Shown: piece after piece, positions 8,490-22,851 of the stretch
Layout of the letters: every line of letters begins with the position of its first letter
Position numbering within the stretch: the first letter of the stretch is position 1
From: Candidatus Gastranaerophilales bacterium
Lineage (GTDB): Bacteria; Cyanobacteriota; Vampirovibrionia; Gastranaerophilales; Gastranaerophilaceae
DNA length: 38,532 nucleotides
Assembly (NCBI GenBank): GCA_944327215.1
Contig: CALVGY010000002.1
Coordinates: forward strand, 1-38,532
Direction of reading: 5' to 3'
Made by a program: the position numbers and the translations under genes
The notes under the pieces: model-generated
Database searches by the model: none
The model's input: only the letters and a program-made list of their open reading frames with translations
What the model was told of the DNA's origin: nothing

Positions 8490-8504
8490 AATTTGTTTAT
8501 AAAA

Positions 8505-8669
8505 GACCCTGAAACAAGTTCAGGGTGACAAAGGTAATAAGTCATTCCGAACTCGTTTCAGAATCTCGAAATCTAAAATTTAAAATCAACCGTCATTCCG
8601 AACTTGTTTCGGAATCTCAAAGTCTAAAATAACAAATCAACCATCATTCTGAACTTGTTTCAGAATCTC
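8505..8669. repeat. Left hairpin-repeat block of the GIY-YIG cassette (four units)
   Basis: Four copies of a 25-27 bp imperfect palindrome: 8505-8529 (inverted orientation, arms CCCTGAA and TTCAGGG), then 8541-8567, 8592-8618 and 8643-8669 in direct orientation. The last three repeat with an exact 51-bp period: a 27-bp palindrome plus a 24-bp linker similar between copies. Arms of the 8592 copy are ATTCCGAA and TTCGGAAT around CTTGT. The last copy stops 22 nt before the nuclease start codon. The block also directly follows murJ and could act as its 3' hairpin. Confidence 0.9.
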
Positions 8670-8691
8670 AAATATTAATAGACAAAAATTT

Positions 8692-8985
8692 ATGACTAAC
8701 AAAACTGGATATATTTACATACTAACCAATAAAAATAATAACGTTTTCTATATAGGAGTTACTTCTAATCTAAAGAAGAGAATATGGGAACACAAAAACA
8801 AAGTTGTTGAAGGATTTTCAAAAAAGTATAATTTAAACAAACTTGTATATTATGAAGTTGGAGAAGATATATTAAGTGCAATTGAAAGGGAAAAACAGCT
8901 TAAAAACTGGCATAGAGAATGGAAAATTAATCTTATAAAAACACAAAATCCTAATTTTAAAGATTTATATGATGATATTTTGTAA
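8692..8985 (+). CDS. Single-domain GIY-YIG nuclease (UPF0213/URI-like)
   Basis: A 97-aa protein made almost entirely of one GIY-YIG nuclease domain. Visible: the GIY equivalent YIYILTN at 7-13, YIGVT at 20-24, the basic motif LKKRIWEH at 27-34 with catalytic-type Arg30, and AIEREKQLKNW at 63-73 with the metal-binding Glu (65 or 67), ending with the family-typical NPNFKDL. All nuclease residues appear intact. It has no partner domain, so any DNA target specificity must come from this domain or from the flanking DNA. The gene sits alone between two hairpin-repeat blocks 500 bp apart. There is no clear Shine-Dalgarno. A role in moving the repeats is inference; a housekeeping nuclease is the alternative. 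Confidence 0.9.
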   Translation: MTNKTGYIYILTNKNNNVFYIGVTSNLKKRIWEHKNKVVEGFSKKYNLNKLVYYEVGEDILSAIEREKQLKNWHREWKINLIKTQNPNFKDLYDDIL

Positions 8986-9004
8986 TATTTTATTATAGAA
9001 AAGA

Positions 9005-9118
9005 GACCCTGAAACAAGTTCAGGGTGACAAAGGTAATAAGTCATTCTGAACTCGTTTCAGAATCTCGAAATCTAAAATTTAAAATCAACTGTCATTCTG
9101 AACTTGTTTCAGAATCTC
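9005..9118. repeat. Right hairpin-repeat block of the GIY-YIG cassette (three units)
   Basis: Copies at 9005-9029 (inverted), 9041-9067 and 9092-9118 match the left block base for base at a constant offset of 500 over 114 positions, with four mismatches (8548/9048, 8591/9091, 8599/9099, 8611/9111), all transitions. Arms of the last two copies are ATTCTGAA and TTCAGAAT, perfectly paired. The left block has one extra 51-bp unit. Confidence 0.9.
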
Positions 9119-15340: not shown

Positions 15341-16600
15341 ATGATTGACTTTGTAAAAATTGCAAAAGACGCAAAAGATGCTTCTTTAAAAATTGCAGAT
15401 TTATCAACAGAATTGAAAAACACTGCATTATTAAAAATTGCAGATGAAATCGAATTGAATAAAGAAGAAATTTTTGAAGCTAATAAAACAGATTTGGAAG
15501 CTGCAAAAAGTCTTGTAGAATCGGGCGAACTTACAAAATCGACATTTAATCGTCTAAAACTTGATGAAAATAAAATGCGTGATATGATTCAAGGTATTAG
15601 AGACATTGCAAAACTTGAAGATCCCGTAAATAAAAAGCTTTTAGTAAGAGAGCTAGATAGCGACCTAACTCTATACAAAGTATCTTGCCCTATCGGAGTT
15701 TTAGGGATAATCTTTGAGGCAAGACCTGATGTTATTGCACAGATTTCATCACTTGCAATAAAATCAGCAAATGCTGTAATTTTAAAAGGCGGAAAAGAAT
15801 CAATAAACACAAATAAAAAAATTCTATCAATAATAAATTCTGCACTCGAAAAAATCGAAGGATTTCCAAAAAATGTTATCCAACAAGTATTCACACGTGA
15901 TGATGTAGCAGAAATGCTAAAATGCGACAAATATATTAACTTGATAATTCCAAGAGGCGGAAATAAACTTGTTAAATTCATAAAAGAAAATACAAAAATT
16001 CCAGTACTTGGTCACGCTGACGGAATTTGCCATATATTTGTAGACGAAAGTGCTGATCTTGATATGGCAATAAAAGTTGTAACAGATGCAAAAACTCAAT
16101 ACCCGAGTGCTTGTAATTCTGTAGAAACTTTGTTAATTCATGAAAAATTTCCTAAAATTGATAACCTGCTTGCAACATTGCAATTATCAGAAATTCAATT
16201 GATAGACAAACCAGAAAGCTGGTCACACGAATACGGAGATAAAATTTTATCATTCAAAACCTTAAAAAATGTTGATGAAGCAATCGAACATATTAATACA
16301 TTCGGTTCAGGCCATACAGATAGCATTATTACAAAAAATATAGAAAATGCGGAAAAATTTATGAACAAAGTTGATTCCGCAGGCGTATATTTTAATGCAT
16401 CTACAAGATTTGCAGACGGTTTCCGCTACGGTTTCGGCGCCGAAGTCGGGATTTCTACAAATAAAACTCATGCAAGAGGCCCTGTAGGACTTGAGGGTTT
16501 AACAATTTATAAATACAAACTTGTAGGTAACGGAAATATCGTAAAAGATTACGTTGACGGAACCAAACATTTTAATCATAAAGATTTGAAAAATGCATAA
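15341..16600 (+). CDS. proA: Gamma-glutamyl phosphate reductase
   Basis: Second step of proline synthesis: NADPH-dependent reduction of glutamyl-5-phosphate to the semialdehyde. The 419-aa aldehyde-dehydrogenase-fold protein has CPIGVLGIIFEARPDVIAQI, ILKGGKE, the IPRGGNKLV stretch and the catalytic Cys258 in YPSACNSVETLL, plus the ProA-typical ending GFGAEVGISTNKTHARGPVG. Start ATG 15341 has AAGGAG about 9 nt upstream, the ordinary type, consistent with being the internal gene of a proBA operon. A tRNA-Ser gene begins only 4 nt after its stop codon. Confidence 0.97.
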   Translation: MIDFVKIAKDAKDASLKIADLSTELKNTALLKIADEIELNKEEIFEANKTDLEAAKSLVESGELTKSTFNRLKLDENKMRDMIQGIRDIAKLEDPVNKKLLVRELDSDLTLYKVSCPIGVLGIIFEARPDVIAQISSLAIKSANAVILKGGKESINTNKKILSIINSALEKIEGFPKNVIQQVFTRDDVAEMLKCDKYINLIIPRGGNKLVKFIKENTKIPVLGHADGICHIFVDESADLDMAIKVVTDAKTQYPSACNSVETLLIHEKFPKIDNLLATLQLSEIQLIDKPESWSHEYGDKILSFKTLKNVDEAIEHINTFGSGHTDSIITKNIENAEKFMNKVDSAGVYFNASTRFADGFRYGFGAEVGISTNKTHARGPVGLEGLTIYKYKLVGNGNIVKDYVDGTKHFNHKDLKNA

Positions 16601-16604
16601 AAAA

Positions 16605-16691
16605 GGAGAGGTGTCCGAGTGGTTTAAGGTGCGGATCTCGAAAGTCTGTGAGGGGTAACACTCTCCGTGGGTTCGAATCCCACCCTCTCCG
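16605..16691 (+). tRNA. tRNA-Ser (anticodon CGA)
   Basis: An 87-nt type II tRNA. Acceptor arm GGAGAGG (16605-16611) pairs with CCTCTCC (16684-16690), followed by discriminator G at 16691; CCA is not encoded. The anticodon loop CTCGAAA gives CGA, reading UCG. The long variable arm (around GTGAGGGGTAACACTC) is typical of tRNA-Ser, and the T-loop GTTCGAATC is canonical. The anticodon stem includes G-T pairs. It starts 4 nt after the proA stop, so it is probably made by processing of the proBA transcript; no separate promoter fits in the gap. No obvious terminator hairpin follows. Confidence 0.95.
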
Positions 16692-16729: not shown

Positions 16730-16747
16730 ATTTTACCTTATGGATTT
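16730..16747. repeat. 18-bp direct repeat, left copy
   Basis: ATTTTACCTTATGGATTT occurs here and again at 18115-18132, just after the stop codon of the intervening orphan gene. Similarity does not extend beyond the 18 bp. The rest of the 243-nt space between the tRNA and the orphan holds only AT-rich sequence in which I see no gene. Confidence 0.7.
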
Positions 16748-16934
16748 TAATTTAATGGGACATTTTACATTTGTTCTTTAATATTTATTTTATCTTTTAC
16801 AAATAAGCATTGAATATATTCCGATACAAACTCTTTACATTTTTTAATTTTTATAAAATTAATAGCAATTTTCAATCTTGACATCTTTTCGAAAAAAAAA
16901 CAAATAACAAAATATTTTTTGTAAGGGAATATAT

Positions 16935-18113
16935 ATGCTAAAAGTTGAACCTATCTTATTTAATAAATTAATCAATAATGCATCAAGAACAAAAAGAGAA
17001 ATTACAAATATGAAAAACATAGGCTTAACTCAAAAAGAAATTTTGCTGGAAACAATTGCTCGCAATAATAATTTATCTAATCCTGAATTTAGCAATGCTT
17101 TAAATGAAATGTTTATAGAAATGGCTAACGGGAATTTTTCAAAAGGTGTAGAAATAATTAAAAAATTTATCCCTAATCAAGCAGCAATAAAACAAACAAA
17201 ATTAGGGACAGCAGTAATGGCTGAAGGTTGGGAAAAACCAATTGTATTTCCTCAAACTAAAGACTTTAAAATGCTTGAATGGGCTGATAAGCCGGATGTT
17301 TTAACAACTGAAGAGCTATGGGCTGCAGCTTATGGTAAAAAGCCTGCATTAACAATGGGTGCCGTCGGGAATTCAAACATCAAACCGGAACAAGTTTTAG
17401 GTGGTTGCTCTATGACCAAGAAAGAATTATCAGCAAAATATGAACAAGGAATTGAAGATTTTTACAATCCTATATTTGCATATTTGAAAGAATGCGGAGC
17501 TAATCCGCAAGATATTGGATTTGCATTTGCACACAGCGACTGTGGTGTTGACCGTGCAGTAAGAAATGTTGTTGAAAAAAATAATTTAAAAGGATTTGCA
17601 ACCACCCCAACAGAATACACTCAATATCTTAGAGGAAAAGAAATGCCACCGTCTGACGAATTTCCAAATGGTTTTATCTTAGCAGATTTTCCGTTTCCAA
17701 GTGTATTAACAAGAAATGGAGGTCAGATAGAAGACTATGCAAATGTATATAGCAAAATGGTAGGAAAAGAAATGCCGTTAGGAGTTTTCGGAGGTGGCGA
17801 ACATGCTTTCACAAGAGATGCAAGAGAAGCATTATTTGGGAAAAACGGTTCACAAGCAGTTCCTGTAGATATTATGAAAGACAAATTTAATATAGTAATA
17901 CCCGCTACTAATGAAAATGGGGCTGTTACAAATGCTGCTCGTGATATGCTTGAAAGAGTAAACGGCTCTCCTTACGAGCAATATAAATATGCTTTCAGAT
18001 ATTACTTACCAAATAACACAAAAAAATCTGATATAGCACAATATGACCCTCAAGCATCTATTGCTACAATTGCATATACGCAATTAGCAAAAGCTGGGAA
18101 AATTGGGAAATAA
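16935..18113 (+). CDS. Uncharacterised protein, possible Rossmann/SLOG-like fold
   Basis: Not confidently recognised. The 392-aa protein has a helical N-terminal ~75 residues (RTKREITNMKNIGLTQKEIL, then ANGNFSKGVEIIKKFIP) and a larger alpha/beta region. The latter contains LTMGAVGNSNIKPEQVLGG, IGFAFAHSDCGVDRAVRNV, ILADFPFPSVLTRNGGQIED and GVFGGGEHAFTRDAREALFG. The glycine-rich GVFGGGEHAFTRDARE and the repeated strand-turn-helix pattern recall nucleotide- or ligand-binding Rossmann folds such as SLOG/LOG, but this is inference from pattern only. No signal peptide or membrane helix. Start ATG 16935 has AAGGGA about 7 nt upstream. The gene stands alone after a tRNA and is bracketed by an 18-bp direct repeat. 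Confidence 0.6.
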   Translation: MLKVEPILFNKLINNASRTKREITNMKNIGLTQKEILLETIARNNNLSNPEFSNALNEMFIEMANGNFSKGVEIIKKFIPNQAAIKQTKLGTAVMAEGWEKPIVFPQTKDFKMLEWADKPDVLTTEELWAAAYGKKPALTMGAVGNSNIKPEQVLGGCSMTKKELSAKYEQGIEDFYNPIFAYLKECGANPQDIGFAFAHSDCGVDRAVRNVVEKNNLKGFATTPTEYTQYLRGKEMPPSDEFPNGFILADFPFPSVLTRNGGQIEDYANVYSKMVGKEMPLGVFGGGEHAFTRDAREALFGKNGSQAVPVDIMKDKFNIVIPATNENGAVTNAARDMLERVNGSPYEQYKYAFRYYLPNNTKKSDIAQYDPQASIATIAYTQLAKAGKIGK

Positions 18114-18114
18114 G

Positions 18115-18132
18115 ATTTTACCTTATGGATTT
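18115..18132. repeat. 18-bp direct repeat, right copy
   Basis: Second exact copy of ATTTTACCTTATGGATTT, starting 1 nt after the stop codon of the 16935-18113 gene; the first copy is at 16730-16747. Confidence 0.7.
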
Positions 18133-18256
18133 ATATATAAAGGTATTTAAGATTTAACTTGTTTTGTGTATTTTATATAAAGCAGGGAATTTGCTATACA
18201 CAAATGCTTAATCTTCTGCAATTTATAAAATGAAAACACAAAATAAGGAGCTTTGC

Positions 18257-18727
18257 ATGTTTAAAAATTTAACTAAAGAATTAAAAGAATTTATCTTACG
18301 AGGTAACGTTCTTGATATGGCAGTTGGTATAATTATAGGTGCAGCGTTTGGGAAAATTGTTGATTCTTTAGTAAAAGATGTTATAATGCCACCGATAGGT
18401 TTAATTTTAGGTAAAGTAGATTTTTCAAATTTATATCTTCAAATATACCCATACAACGTTCATTATAATTCCTTGCAAGCCGCAAAAGATGCTGGAGCCG
18501 TAACCATTAATTATGGGATTTTCATAAACAATATTATCAGTTTTTTAATAGTTGCGTGTGCTGTATTTATATTAATCAAAGCTATAAATAAACTAAAAAA
18601 TTCTATTATAAAACAAGACAAAATTGAGCAGGAAAACACATCAAAAACTTGTCCTTACTGTTGTTCAACAATTCCTTTAAAAGCAACAAGATGTCCATTT
18701 TGTACATCAACACTCACACAAGATTAA
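18257..18727 (+). CDS. mscL: Large-conductance mechanosensitive channel MscL with C-terminal zinc ribbon
   Basis: A pore that opens under extreme membrane tension to release solutes. The 156-aa protein begins with the typical amphipathic S1 helix and TM1: [39 protein letters not shown], shown here only in part ([20 protein letters not shown]). TM2 lies at about 93-113 ([20 protein letters not shown]). After a charged linker, residues about 131-152 carry two CxxC knuckles (CPYC and CPFC), a zinc ribbon seen in some MscL proteins but absent from E. coli MscL. I use ATG 18257 with AAGGAG 6 nt upstream rather than ATG 18230. Its end lies 9 nt from that of the converging lipoprotein gene. Confidence 0.93.
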
Positions 18728-19812: not shown

Positions 19813-21129
19813 ATGGAACAAAAATCACTTTTTGAGAATAACGAAAATCAACCGCTTGCCTCTCGCTTAAGACCACGAGATTTAGATGAATTTGCAGGGC
19901 AGCAGCATCTTATCGGGGAAGGAAAAATTTTACGCAGGCTCATAGAAGAAGACAAAATAACATCAATGATATTTTGGGGGCCTCCTGGAGTTGGGAAAAC
20001 GACCTTAGCAACTATTATCGCGAACAAAACACACGCAACATTTATAAATTTTTCAGCGGTTATAAGTGGGATTAAAGAAATAAAAACCGTTATGAATCAA
20101 GCTGAAGAAGCAAGAAAAATGGGGCAAAAAACAATTGTATTTGTGGATGAAATCCATAGATTTAACAAAGCTCAACAGGATGCTTTTTTACCGTATGTTG
20201 AAAAAGGAAGTATTATCTTAATTGGCGCAACAACAGAAAACCCGTCATTTGAGGTTAACGGGGCGCTTCTTTCAAGATGTAAAGTTTTTGTTTTGCAGGG
20301 GCTAAAAACAGAAGATCTTCTAAAACTTTTAAAACGTGCCATCACAGACAAACGAGGATTTGGCAATCAAACAGTTCATATTACAGATGACCAATTGGAA
20401 GTTGTTGCAAAGTTTGCAAACGGAGATGCCAGAAATGCACTTTCCACATTAGAAATGGTTGTCTTAAACGGAGATGTTTCTTCAACAGGAGAAATAACAG
20501 TTACTCAAGAAACATTAGAACAATGTATATCAAAAAAATCCTTGCTATACGATAAAAATGGGGAAGAACATTACAATATAATATCAGCCCTACATAAATC
20601 CATGAGGAATTCTGATCCTGATGCGGCAGTTTATTGGCTTGCCAGAATGCTTGAAGCAGGGGAAGATCCGCTATATGTAGCAAGAAGGGTCATAAGATTT
20701 GCGAGCGAAGATGTAGGGCTTTCAGACCCTCACGCGCTAGAAATTGCAGTTGCAGCCTATCATGCCTGCCACTATATAGGGATGCCTGAATGTTCCGTCA
20801 ATTTAACCCAAGCAGTTATCTATATGTCACTTGCGCCAAAATCCAATGCTTTAGAAATCGCATATTTAAAGGCCAAAACAGATGCAATAAAAAATATTGC
20901 AGAACCCGTACCACTTGTTATCAGAAATGCCCCGACAAAATTAATGCGTGATCTCAATTACGGCAAAGGCTACCAATATGCACACGACACAAAAGAAAAA
21001 CTAACCAATATGCAATGTCTGCCGGATTCTCTTGTGGGAACAGAATATTATACTCCAACAGAACAAGGGCTTGAAGCAAAATACAAAGCTAAACTAGAAA
21101 GAATAAAAGAGTGGAAAAGAACCCACTAA
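19813..21129 (+). CDS. rarA: Replication-associated recombination protein A (RarA/MgsA)
   Basis: A clamp-loader-like AAA+ ATPase acting at stalled replication forks. The 438-aa protein has the RarA opening PLASRLRPRDLDEFAGQ, Walker A GPPGVGKTT at 56-64, Walker B VFVDEIHRF at about 111-119, the sensor-1-type GATTENPSFEVN, and the arginine-finger region ALLSRCKVF. The C-terminal part contains ISALHKSMRNSDPDAAVYWLARM and EDVGLSDPHAL, diagnostic for RarA/WRNIP1 rather than RuvB. It is complete and normal in length, and ends 1 nt from the end of the converging EamA gene. Confidence 0.97.
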   Translation: MEQKSLFENNENQPLASRLRPRDLDEFAGQQHLIGEGKILRRLIEEDKITSMIFWGPPGVGKTTLATIIANKTHATFINFSAVISGIKEIKTVMNQAEEARKMGQKTIVFVDEIHRFNKAQQDAFLPYVEKGSIILIGATTENPSFEVNGALLSRCKVFVLQGLKTEDLLKLLKRAITDKRGFGNQTVHITDDQLEVVAKFANGDARNALSTLEMVVLNGDVSSTGEITVTQETLEQCISKKSLLYDKNGEEHYNIISALHKSMRNSDPDAAVYWLARMLEAGEDPLYVARRVIRFASEDVGLSDPHALEIAVAAYHACHYIGMPECSVNLTQAVIYMSLAPKSNALEIAYLKAKTDAIKNIAEPVPLVIRNAPTKLMRDLNYGKGYQYAHDTKEKLTNMQCLPDSLVGTEYYTPTEQGLEAKYKAKLERIKEWKRTH

Positions 21130-22089: not shown

Positions 22090-22851
22090 ATGAAAATAGG
22101 AATTATAGGACTGGGCCTAATTGGAGGTTCATTATTTAAAGATTTAAAACATCATTATGATGTAATTGCAATATCTCAATCCCAAAACGGTGAAAATATT
22201 TATAAATCATATAACGAACTAAAAGATAGAGATATTGTTATAGTCTGCACACCAATGAACAAAACTCTTGCGGTGTTAGATGAACTTGAAAATATTTTGC
22301 CAAACGAAACAACCGTAACAGATGTTTGTAGTTTAAAAGAATTTGTTACGAAGAAAAAAAGACCATACAATTTTATCCCGTCACACCCGATGGCAGGGAC
22401 AGAACATAAAGGATTTGAAAACTCGTTTGAAGGCCTTTTTAAAAATGCAAAATGGGTAATTATTGGCAATCCAGAGGACAAGAAGACAAAAGGTCAGGAA
22501 TTATTACTAGAAATTATTGATTATGTAGGTGCAACACCTATTTTCACAACCGCAGAAGAACACGATAAAGCAGTTGCGATGATTTCGCATATGCCAATGG
22601 TAATAGCCCAAGCCCTAATGCTTGCTGCAAAAGAAAACCCGCTTGCTTTACAAATTGCCTCAAGTGGTTTTCGCGATATGACACGTCTTGCACTTTCAAA
22701 TGAAGAAATGGCAACAGATATGGTCACAATGAACCATAAAAATATAGAACAATCTATACTAAAACTATATAAAGCAATAGGAGATTTAACAAACGGCGAC
22801 TATCCAAAGACAATCGCCGAGTTGAAAAATATTCGCTCTAAAATGTTTTAA
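22090..22851 (+). CDS. tyrA: Prephenate/arogenate dehydrogenase
   Basis: An NAD(P)-dependent oxidative decarboxylase of tyrosine synthesis. The 253-aa protein has a Rossmann start GIIGLGLIGGSLFKDLK (about 3-19), the VCTPMNKT strand-loop, the active-site histidine region PSHPMAGTEHKGFENS, and the helical C-terminal domain with AVAMISHMPMVIAQAL and SSGFRDMTRLA. It is a short TyrA without chorismate mutase or ACT domains, so feedback control would have to lie elsewhere. Whether it uses prephenate or arogenate cannot be told. It follows a perfect extended -10 with no ribosome-binding site. Confidence 0.93.
   Translation: MKIGIIGLGLIGGSLFKDLKHHYDVIAISQSQNGENIYKSYNELKDRDIVIVCTPMNKTLAVLDELENILPNETTVTDVCSLKEFVTKKKRPYNFIPSHPMAGTEHKGFENSFEGLFKNAKWVIIGNPEDKKTKGQELLLEIIDYVGATPIFTTAEEHDKAVAMISHMPMVIAQALMLAAKENPLALQIASSGFRDMTRLALSNEEMATDMVTMNHKNIEQSILKLYKAIGDLTNGDYPKTIAELKNIRSKMF

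Follow-up and report, generated by a model that had tools for sequence, protein, structure and literature searches.

An orphan gene, probably acquired by transfer, in a plastic tRNA-Ser flank of a Gastranaerophilales bacterium whose relatives carry a tRNA-associated TniA/TniB transposon

In the 38,532-nucleotide stretch of Candidatus Gastranaerophilales DNA analysed here (contig CALVGY010000002.1; hereafter the window), an open reading frame of 392 amino acids, ORF392 (16935..18113, + strand), lies in a variable interval between a tRNA-Ser(CGA) gene and tyrA. The account that we favour, and to which as a whole we give a probability of about 0.6, is that ORF392 is a functional, acquired accessory gene in a plastic interval and that the 18-bp direct repeat on either side of it is no unit boundary. 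ORF392 would have been gained by horizontal transfer and would have settled between tRNA-Ser(CGA) and tyrA, in an interval presumably kept open by the recurrent insertion and decay of a tRNA-homing transposon encoding a TniA-like transposase, a TniB ATPase and further genes. The element, which inserts 36-80 bp downstream of tRNA genes, probably left the worn left end of one insertion at positions 16746-16767 of the window.

The interval is preceded by its conserved left neighbour, proA (15341..16600, + strand; Aldedh Pfam match), for which a match was found in 33/33 genomes of the genus, partial or weak in a few. It is anchored by the tRNA-Ser (CGA) gene (16605..16691, + strand; ARAGORN; Rfam RF00005, 48.6 bits). 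ORF392 is followed by mscL (ORF from 18230, 18230..18727, + strand; MscL Pfam match), for which a start at 18257 is likelier from the AAGGAG that precedes it, and, in the right part of the interval, by a gene for an mgsA/RarA-type AAA ATPase (19813..21129, + strand; domain match); tyrA (22090..22851, + strand; PDH_N Pfam match) forms the right border. Of 20 regions fetched around proA in relatives, 19 have a tRNA-Ser(CGA) gene on the downstream side of proA, at a distance of 0 to ~2.5 kb; in the exception, L074, none was found. The genes that come after it differ among groups of genomes. A near full-length mscL is present in 9 of the 33 genus genomes, the window's own included, and the mgsA/RarA-type gene in two of the 20 relatives' regions (L063 and L072), with a 43% match in a third (L068). 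In genome G169 and in 12 of the 20 regions, a tyrA gene came into view beyond proA; in the remaining eight regions the fetched DNA contained none. Where it could be measured, the tRNA-to-tyrA span ranged from ~0.2 kb (L068) through ~2.3-2.5 kb (six genomes), 5.4 kb (the window) and ~12 kb (L063) to ~22 kb in G169, in which a further stretch is included. Since this distance varies between genomes, as seen directly, the flank of tRNA-Ser up to tyrA is a plastic interval, or insertion hot spot. Genomic islands that are associated with tRNA genes and carry a tyrosine integrase are a known system with which the locus may be compared. The window likewise has a variable interval beside a tRNA gene but, unlike such islands, shows no integrase, and its 18-bp repeat lies outside the tRNA gene, with no overlap with its 3' end. 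A preliminary description of this DNA had likened the locus downstream of the tRNA gene to an inserted unit while remarking on the lack of an integrase, and none was indeed matched among ORF392 and its neighbours. What survives of the inserted unit is its place, a tRNA-flank insertion hot spot with a probable transfer; the 18-mer as boundary of a mobile unit is not supported.

ORF392 belongs to an orphan family with SLOG-like motifs only. It gave no match in Pfam or NCBIfam, nothing below E 0.9 among solved structures and one weak match among PHROGs (PHROG 17504, E 0.018, function unassigned), so that its family stays unassigned, as first described. A PADLOC match to GajA (E 0.0086, residues 9-87) was weak and was taken as chance. 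No relative was found in phages, plasmids or viral contigs. With an 11-row profile, the family was detected in 12 of 382 genomes of the class, all but one of them in the same taxonomic family. Two of the 12 carriers hold damaged copies, G369 fragments only and G323 a gene with an internal stop, and in the outlier, G233, two distant copies stand in tandem, both included in the profile. A further member, L011, was found in genome_contigs. A candidate in G349 (E 8.7e-4) looked from its sequence like an AAA-type ATPase, was not recovered by the profile and was left out of the counts. Two carriers were seen within the genus, the window and G169, the genus genomes listed numbering at least 22. The homologues at L011-L014 occupy other places and have other neighbours. 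ORF392 is not conserved in gene order, so that the conserved order which the preliminary description had named as a refutation of its reading does not apply.

Several observations were made alongside. In G323, the stop splits the homologue (L095 7462-8664) into two ORFs; together with the fragments on contig C38 of G369, this indicates that the family is also being lost. At L011, an ATPase-like ORF and a small partner ORF (1019-2882) precede the ORF392 homologue by ~2 kb and resemble a defence pair of the RloA/RloB-like type. Many unrelated ORFs in L011, L014, L063, L148 and other regions display, by eye, an N-terminal motif resembling ISFxG or NFxG, which is possibly a sorting signal.

ORF392 is under purifying selection and its protein is kept: dN/dS was ~0.07-0.19 in five family pairs, four of which have saturated dS; the value for the pair formed by the window and L011 is ~0.075. 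Its history was compared with that of proA in trees of 10 genomes, in both of which some forks stay open and in which G132 and G411 contribute long rows. For ORF392, the window falls in one group with G408, G409, G410 and G411 (support 100/99) from which G169 is missing, whereas the proA tree joins the window with G169, of the same genus (again 100/99), and places the four ORF392-tree partners outside the pair. The conflict is thus observed directly; over the same 10 genomes, ORF392 and proA identities show a correlation of only 0.35. Sparse spread and conflict with the proA tree make horizontal transfer likely, rather than paralogy and loss. It is unlikely that ORF392 is instead an old gene of vertical descent, duplicated and lost many times, with interval and repeat as coincidences. 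Such a history would suit the finding that both genus carriers seen hold ORF392 between tRNA-Ser and tyrA, as well as the two tandem copies in a distant family and the evidence of loss in the decayed copies of G323 and G369; against it stand the strongly supported disagreement of the two trees and the different places and neighbours of the L011-L014 homologues.

The favoured account further draws on a transposon found in relatives. Four of their regions (L066, L070, L071 and L075) have a transposase-like ORF, 593-673 aa long, at no more than 2.7 kb from the tRNA gene. The transposase ORFs of L070 and of G159 (the genome of L066), which belong to related modules, contain a Mu-transposase C-terminal domain (Pfam Mu-transpos_C), and a TniB ORF (Pfam TniB) comes after each of them. 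A transposon end, TGTAATTTAACGGGACATTTTATC..., is shared by several of the relatives' regions, diverged in L071 and not seen in L070. When a 64-nt query made of the left end was run against the 33 genus genomes, matches were obtained in 22 of them. The left ends analysed were those at E<=4e-10 (22 places), and since DNA was lacking for one, 21 were examined. In 16 of the 21, the nearest left end starts 36-80 bp after the 3' end of a tRNA gene on the same strand, the tRNAs being of the Ser, Met and Arg types; these cannot be counted as 16 independent events, since an insertion may be common to related genomes, although more than one tRNA gene was hit. The other five have no such tRNA gene within the fetched DNA, and four of them (L106, L109, L124 and L129, not L104) start 4-18 bp behind a sequence resembling a right end, by a pattern derived from L106, itself one of the four positives. 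The right end at L129 departs from the L106 pattern at 7/26 positions yet was confirmed as a junction. These four left ends probably sit behind another element. Two left ends are stacked 28-47 bp apart (L110, L114 and L124), and in L129 with L100 two elements abut exactly at a 5-bp duplication; such arrangements look as if later copies had struck the ends of earlier elements.

Both elements that were checked, in G159 and in G169, have TGT...ACA ends and 5-bp duplications, so that the duplication, like the tRNA preference, is a matter of direct observation. In G159 (L200 and L201), the element (C4:141898-120357) extends over 21,542 bp and has a copy of ATTAG on either side; in G169 (L075 with L089), it measures 15,786 bp and is flanked in the same way by CTCAA. 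On the G159 element, genes for a TniA-like protein, TniB and a second, Mu-like transposase occur together with an unnamed gene of 221 aa; the cargo consists of DpnII plus DNA methylases, a helicase and a protein of the Mrr-nSTAND3 type. G169 has ORFs similar in size and sequence start, as judged by eye, for the transposition genes, DpnII and the methylases. No TniQ was matched in the 10 ORFs scanned of the 24 listed in the G159 element, and a TniQ search returned 0/13 genomes, its positive control giving no match either. A 21-mer of the transposon end had 0 matches in viral contigs.

These features recall the tRNA-homing transposons of the Tn7 superfamily (CAST I-B2, I-D and V-K). TniA/TnsB-like and TniB/TnsC-like genes are present in the relatives' element as well, and it, too, inserts just downstream of tRNA genes. 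Tn7 makes a 5-bp duplication, as this element does. For CyCAST, homing to a site 30-33 nt past the tRNA is described (PMC10293859; PMC11406308). The relatives' element, unlike these systems, is found at 36-80 bp from several different tRNAs, has a second, Mu-like transposase and gave no TniQ; the comparison rests on the relatives' elements, the window having one worn end at most.

That end lies at 16746..16767 (+ strand) and is a probable eroded left end of the tRNA-homing TniA/TniB transposon. Within it, TTTAATGGGACATTTTA (16751-16767) differs from the relatives' end at 1 of 17 positions. When up to 3 mismatches are allowed, nothing else in the window, on either strand, matches the 17-mer of the end; some such match occurs in 26 of 100 shuffles. 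The end-like sequence is found 54 bp after the tRNA gene (36-80 bp in relatives); ~20 bp of it are kept, and the terminal TG reads TT. It is plainly present in the window; as judged from its letters and its position, it is a probable fossil left end and, by the same reasoning, would probably be a true remnant of an insertion. The window's own genome gave no match to the 64-nt end query at E<=0.01, and a right-end pattern, searched in the window at up to 6 errors, gave one match, within proB on the opposite strand (15005), which was taken as chance.

It is conceivable, if improbable, that ORF392 was once cargo of this TniA/TniB transposon and that the right end and the transposase genes were deleted later: the start of ORF392 comes 167 bp after the end-like sequence, which is oriented so that the ORF would fall inside the element, and the G159 element does carry defence and other cargo. 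The window has no right end, however, and the homologues L010-L014 have no tRNA gene in their fetched DNA. In G169, moreover, the homologue lies on the other strand, 1,877 bp past the right end of the transposon and hence outside it, so that ORF392 is not cargo there.

We turn to the 18-bp direct repeat, which lies at 16730..16747 and 18115..18132 (+ strand; sequence match) on the two sides of ORF392 and was correctly described beforehand. The repeat unit, ATTTTACCTTATGGATTT, is identical over 18 nt in both copies. As the preliminary description also had it, copy 1 starts 38 nt after the 3' end of the tRNA-Ser(CGA) gene; it touches the end-like sequence. Copy 2 starts after one base past the ORF392 stop codon, and ORF392 is the sole ORF of at least 90 aa between the two. 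In 200 dinucleotide-preserving shuffles of the whole window, an exact direct repeat of at least 18 nt within 1.5 kb arose four times, and once when low-complexity repeats were excluded. The chance of so close a repeat is ~0.5-2% per window, which is unusual, yet reachable when many windows are scanned. A second exact 18-nt repeat in the window (21826/27043), 5.2 kb apart, is without evident meaning. A separate stretch of the window, 8504-9107, holds exact repeats tens of bases long and ~450-500 bp apart, unrelated to the 18-mer.

In the window's own genome (131 contigs, 98.85% complete), the 18-mer occurs with 0 or 1 mismatch at these two places only; one further match appears at 2 mismatches. 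It is not frequent, and the genome-wide frequency that the preliminary description had named as a refutation of its reading is therefore not seen. At up to 3 mismatches it is found at 16 places, the window pair included, against 9 for a reversed control pattern; these counts reveal no clear motif family across the genome, and the 18-mer was rejected as a genome-wide motif. The other genus genomes contain no exact copy (0/32), and none with one 18-mer and no gene was found among them; two of the 32 have a copy with 1 mismatch, in both cases within a 496-aa open frame. At 13 loci of ORF392 homologues, in 11 genomes, no copy was detected at up to 2 mismatches. Two other origins were tried and rejected. 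The 5-bp duplications of the TniA/TniB transposon, observed in two elements, would not yield an 18-bp repeat, which speaks against a target duplication of that transposon. A viral repeat was discarded as well: 19 stretches of viral_contigs have an exact match, one each, a number that by rough estimate is near chance level for an AT-rich 18-mer.

The two 18-mers, one ahead of ORF392 and the other ahead of mscL, might alternatively be paired operator sites for a single regulator. The spacing would fit, copy 1 preceding the ORF392 start by 187 bp and copy 2 the likely mscL start by 124 bp, but we consider the proposal quite improbable: the genome has only the two copies at up to 1 mismatch, the 18-mer was not found before the mscL gene of G073 or near ORF392 homologues, and promoter-like sites are no commoner than in shuffles. 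Very improbable is a minimal mobile cassette, a 1.4-kb ORF392 unit moved by site-specific recombination at the 18-mer with an integrase encoded elsewhere, which could invoke an exact repeat that chance yields at 0.5-2% and that is unique in the genome, the sparse, transfer-like spread of ORF392 and the closeness of copy 2 to the stop codon, but which is opposed by the want of any empty site, by the homologue loci (0/13) and genus genomes (0/32) that have no such repeat, by the lack of an inverted core in the 18-mer (palindrome score, crude), by the absence of an integrase match in ORF392 and its neighbours and by a transposon that duplicates 5 bp. The 18-mer is thus real and unusual and by itself proof of nothing; the likeliest reading makes it a scar of recombination or a coincidence, not a unit boundary, and its role is probably incidental. 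Among the points that weigh against the favoured account is the exactness of the 18-mer beside the transposon end, which this account leaves without explanation.

The preliminary description had also read ORF392 as Rossmann-like, with possible SLOG similarity. This stays plausible from the motifs and was not borne out by profile comparison, structure models or fold search. G204-V205-D206 is invariant in 11/11 aligned members of the family, and one glycine of a late GGG is kept in all 11. G-V-D agrees with the GxD/E motif by which PMC6459960 characterises the YpsA clade of SLOG proteins. ORF392 resembles this clade of the SLOG (SMF/DprA/LOG) superfamily in having a GxD motif after a predicted strand, an alternation of strands and helices in low-confidence models and GGG-x-H-A late in the chain; it differs in its lack of a significant profile match and in an extra, predicted N-terminal helical region. 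In hhalign comparisons, ORF392 reached 1-3% with the sets for LDcluster4 and LOG and 0.2-0.4% with that for DprA, whereas the three SLOG sets, used as a control, retrieved each other at 87-99.5%. No SLOG family of Pfam matched ORF392, and PF10686, searched in 40 class genomes, gave 0 matches and therefore no comparison set for that SLOG family. AlphaFold2 models were of low confidence (pLDDT 40.5 and 45.9), and Foldseek, run with a trimmed low-confidence model against pdb, had its best hit at E 0.51 and none at E<=0.001. We do not assign ORF392 to SLOG; that it works like a SLOG ligand-binding protein is a tentative view, to which we incline somewhat less than to its opposite. It could be a cytosolic SLOG-type protein that binds a ligand or nucleotide, with an N-terminal helical part of ~100 residues and a ligand-binding H-S-D-x-G-V-D loop.

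That tRNA flanks are insertion hot spots is already well known. What the present locus and its relatives add is a nameable agent of insertion at such flanks, in bacteria that are mostly uncultured; it appears to choose tRNA genes by means of a TniA/TniB module without a known target selector. Taken further, and at slightly less than even odds for all its parts together, the transposon would be of a kind undescribed in the literature consulted, with two transposases (one TniA-like with TniB, the other Mu-like). It would select tRNA genes although no TniQ is recognisable, and would time and again have reshaped the tRNA flanks of Gastranaerophilales with restriction and other defence cargo, and the window would hold a fossil of it beside a transferred gene. 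ORF392 itself represents a conserved, selected protein family that is nameless in the libraries searched.
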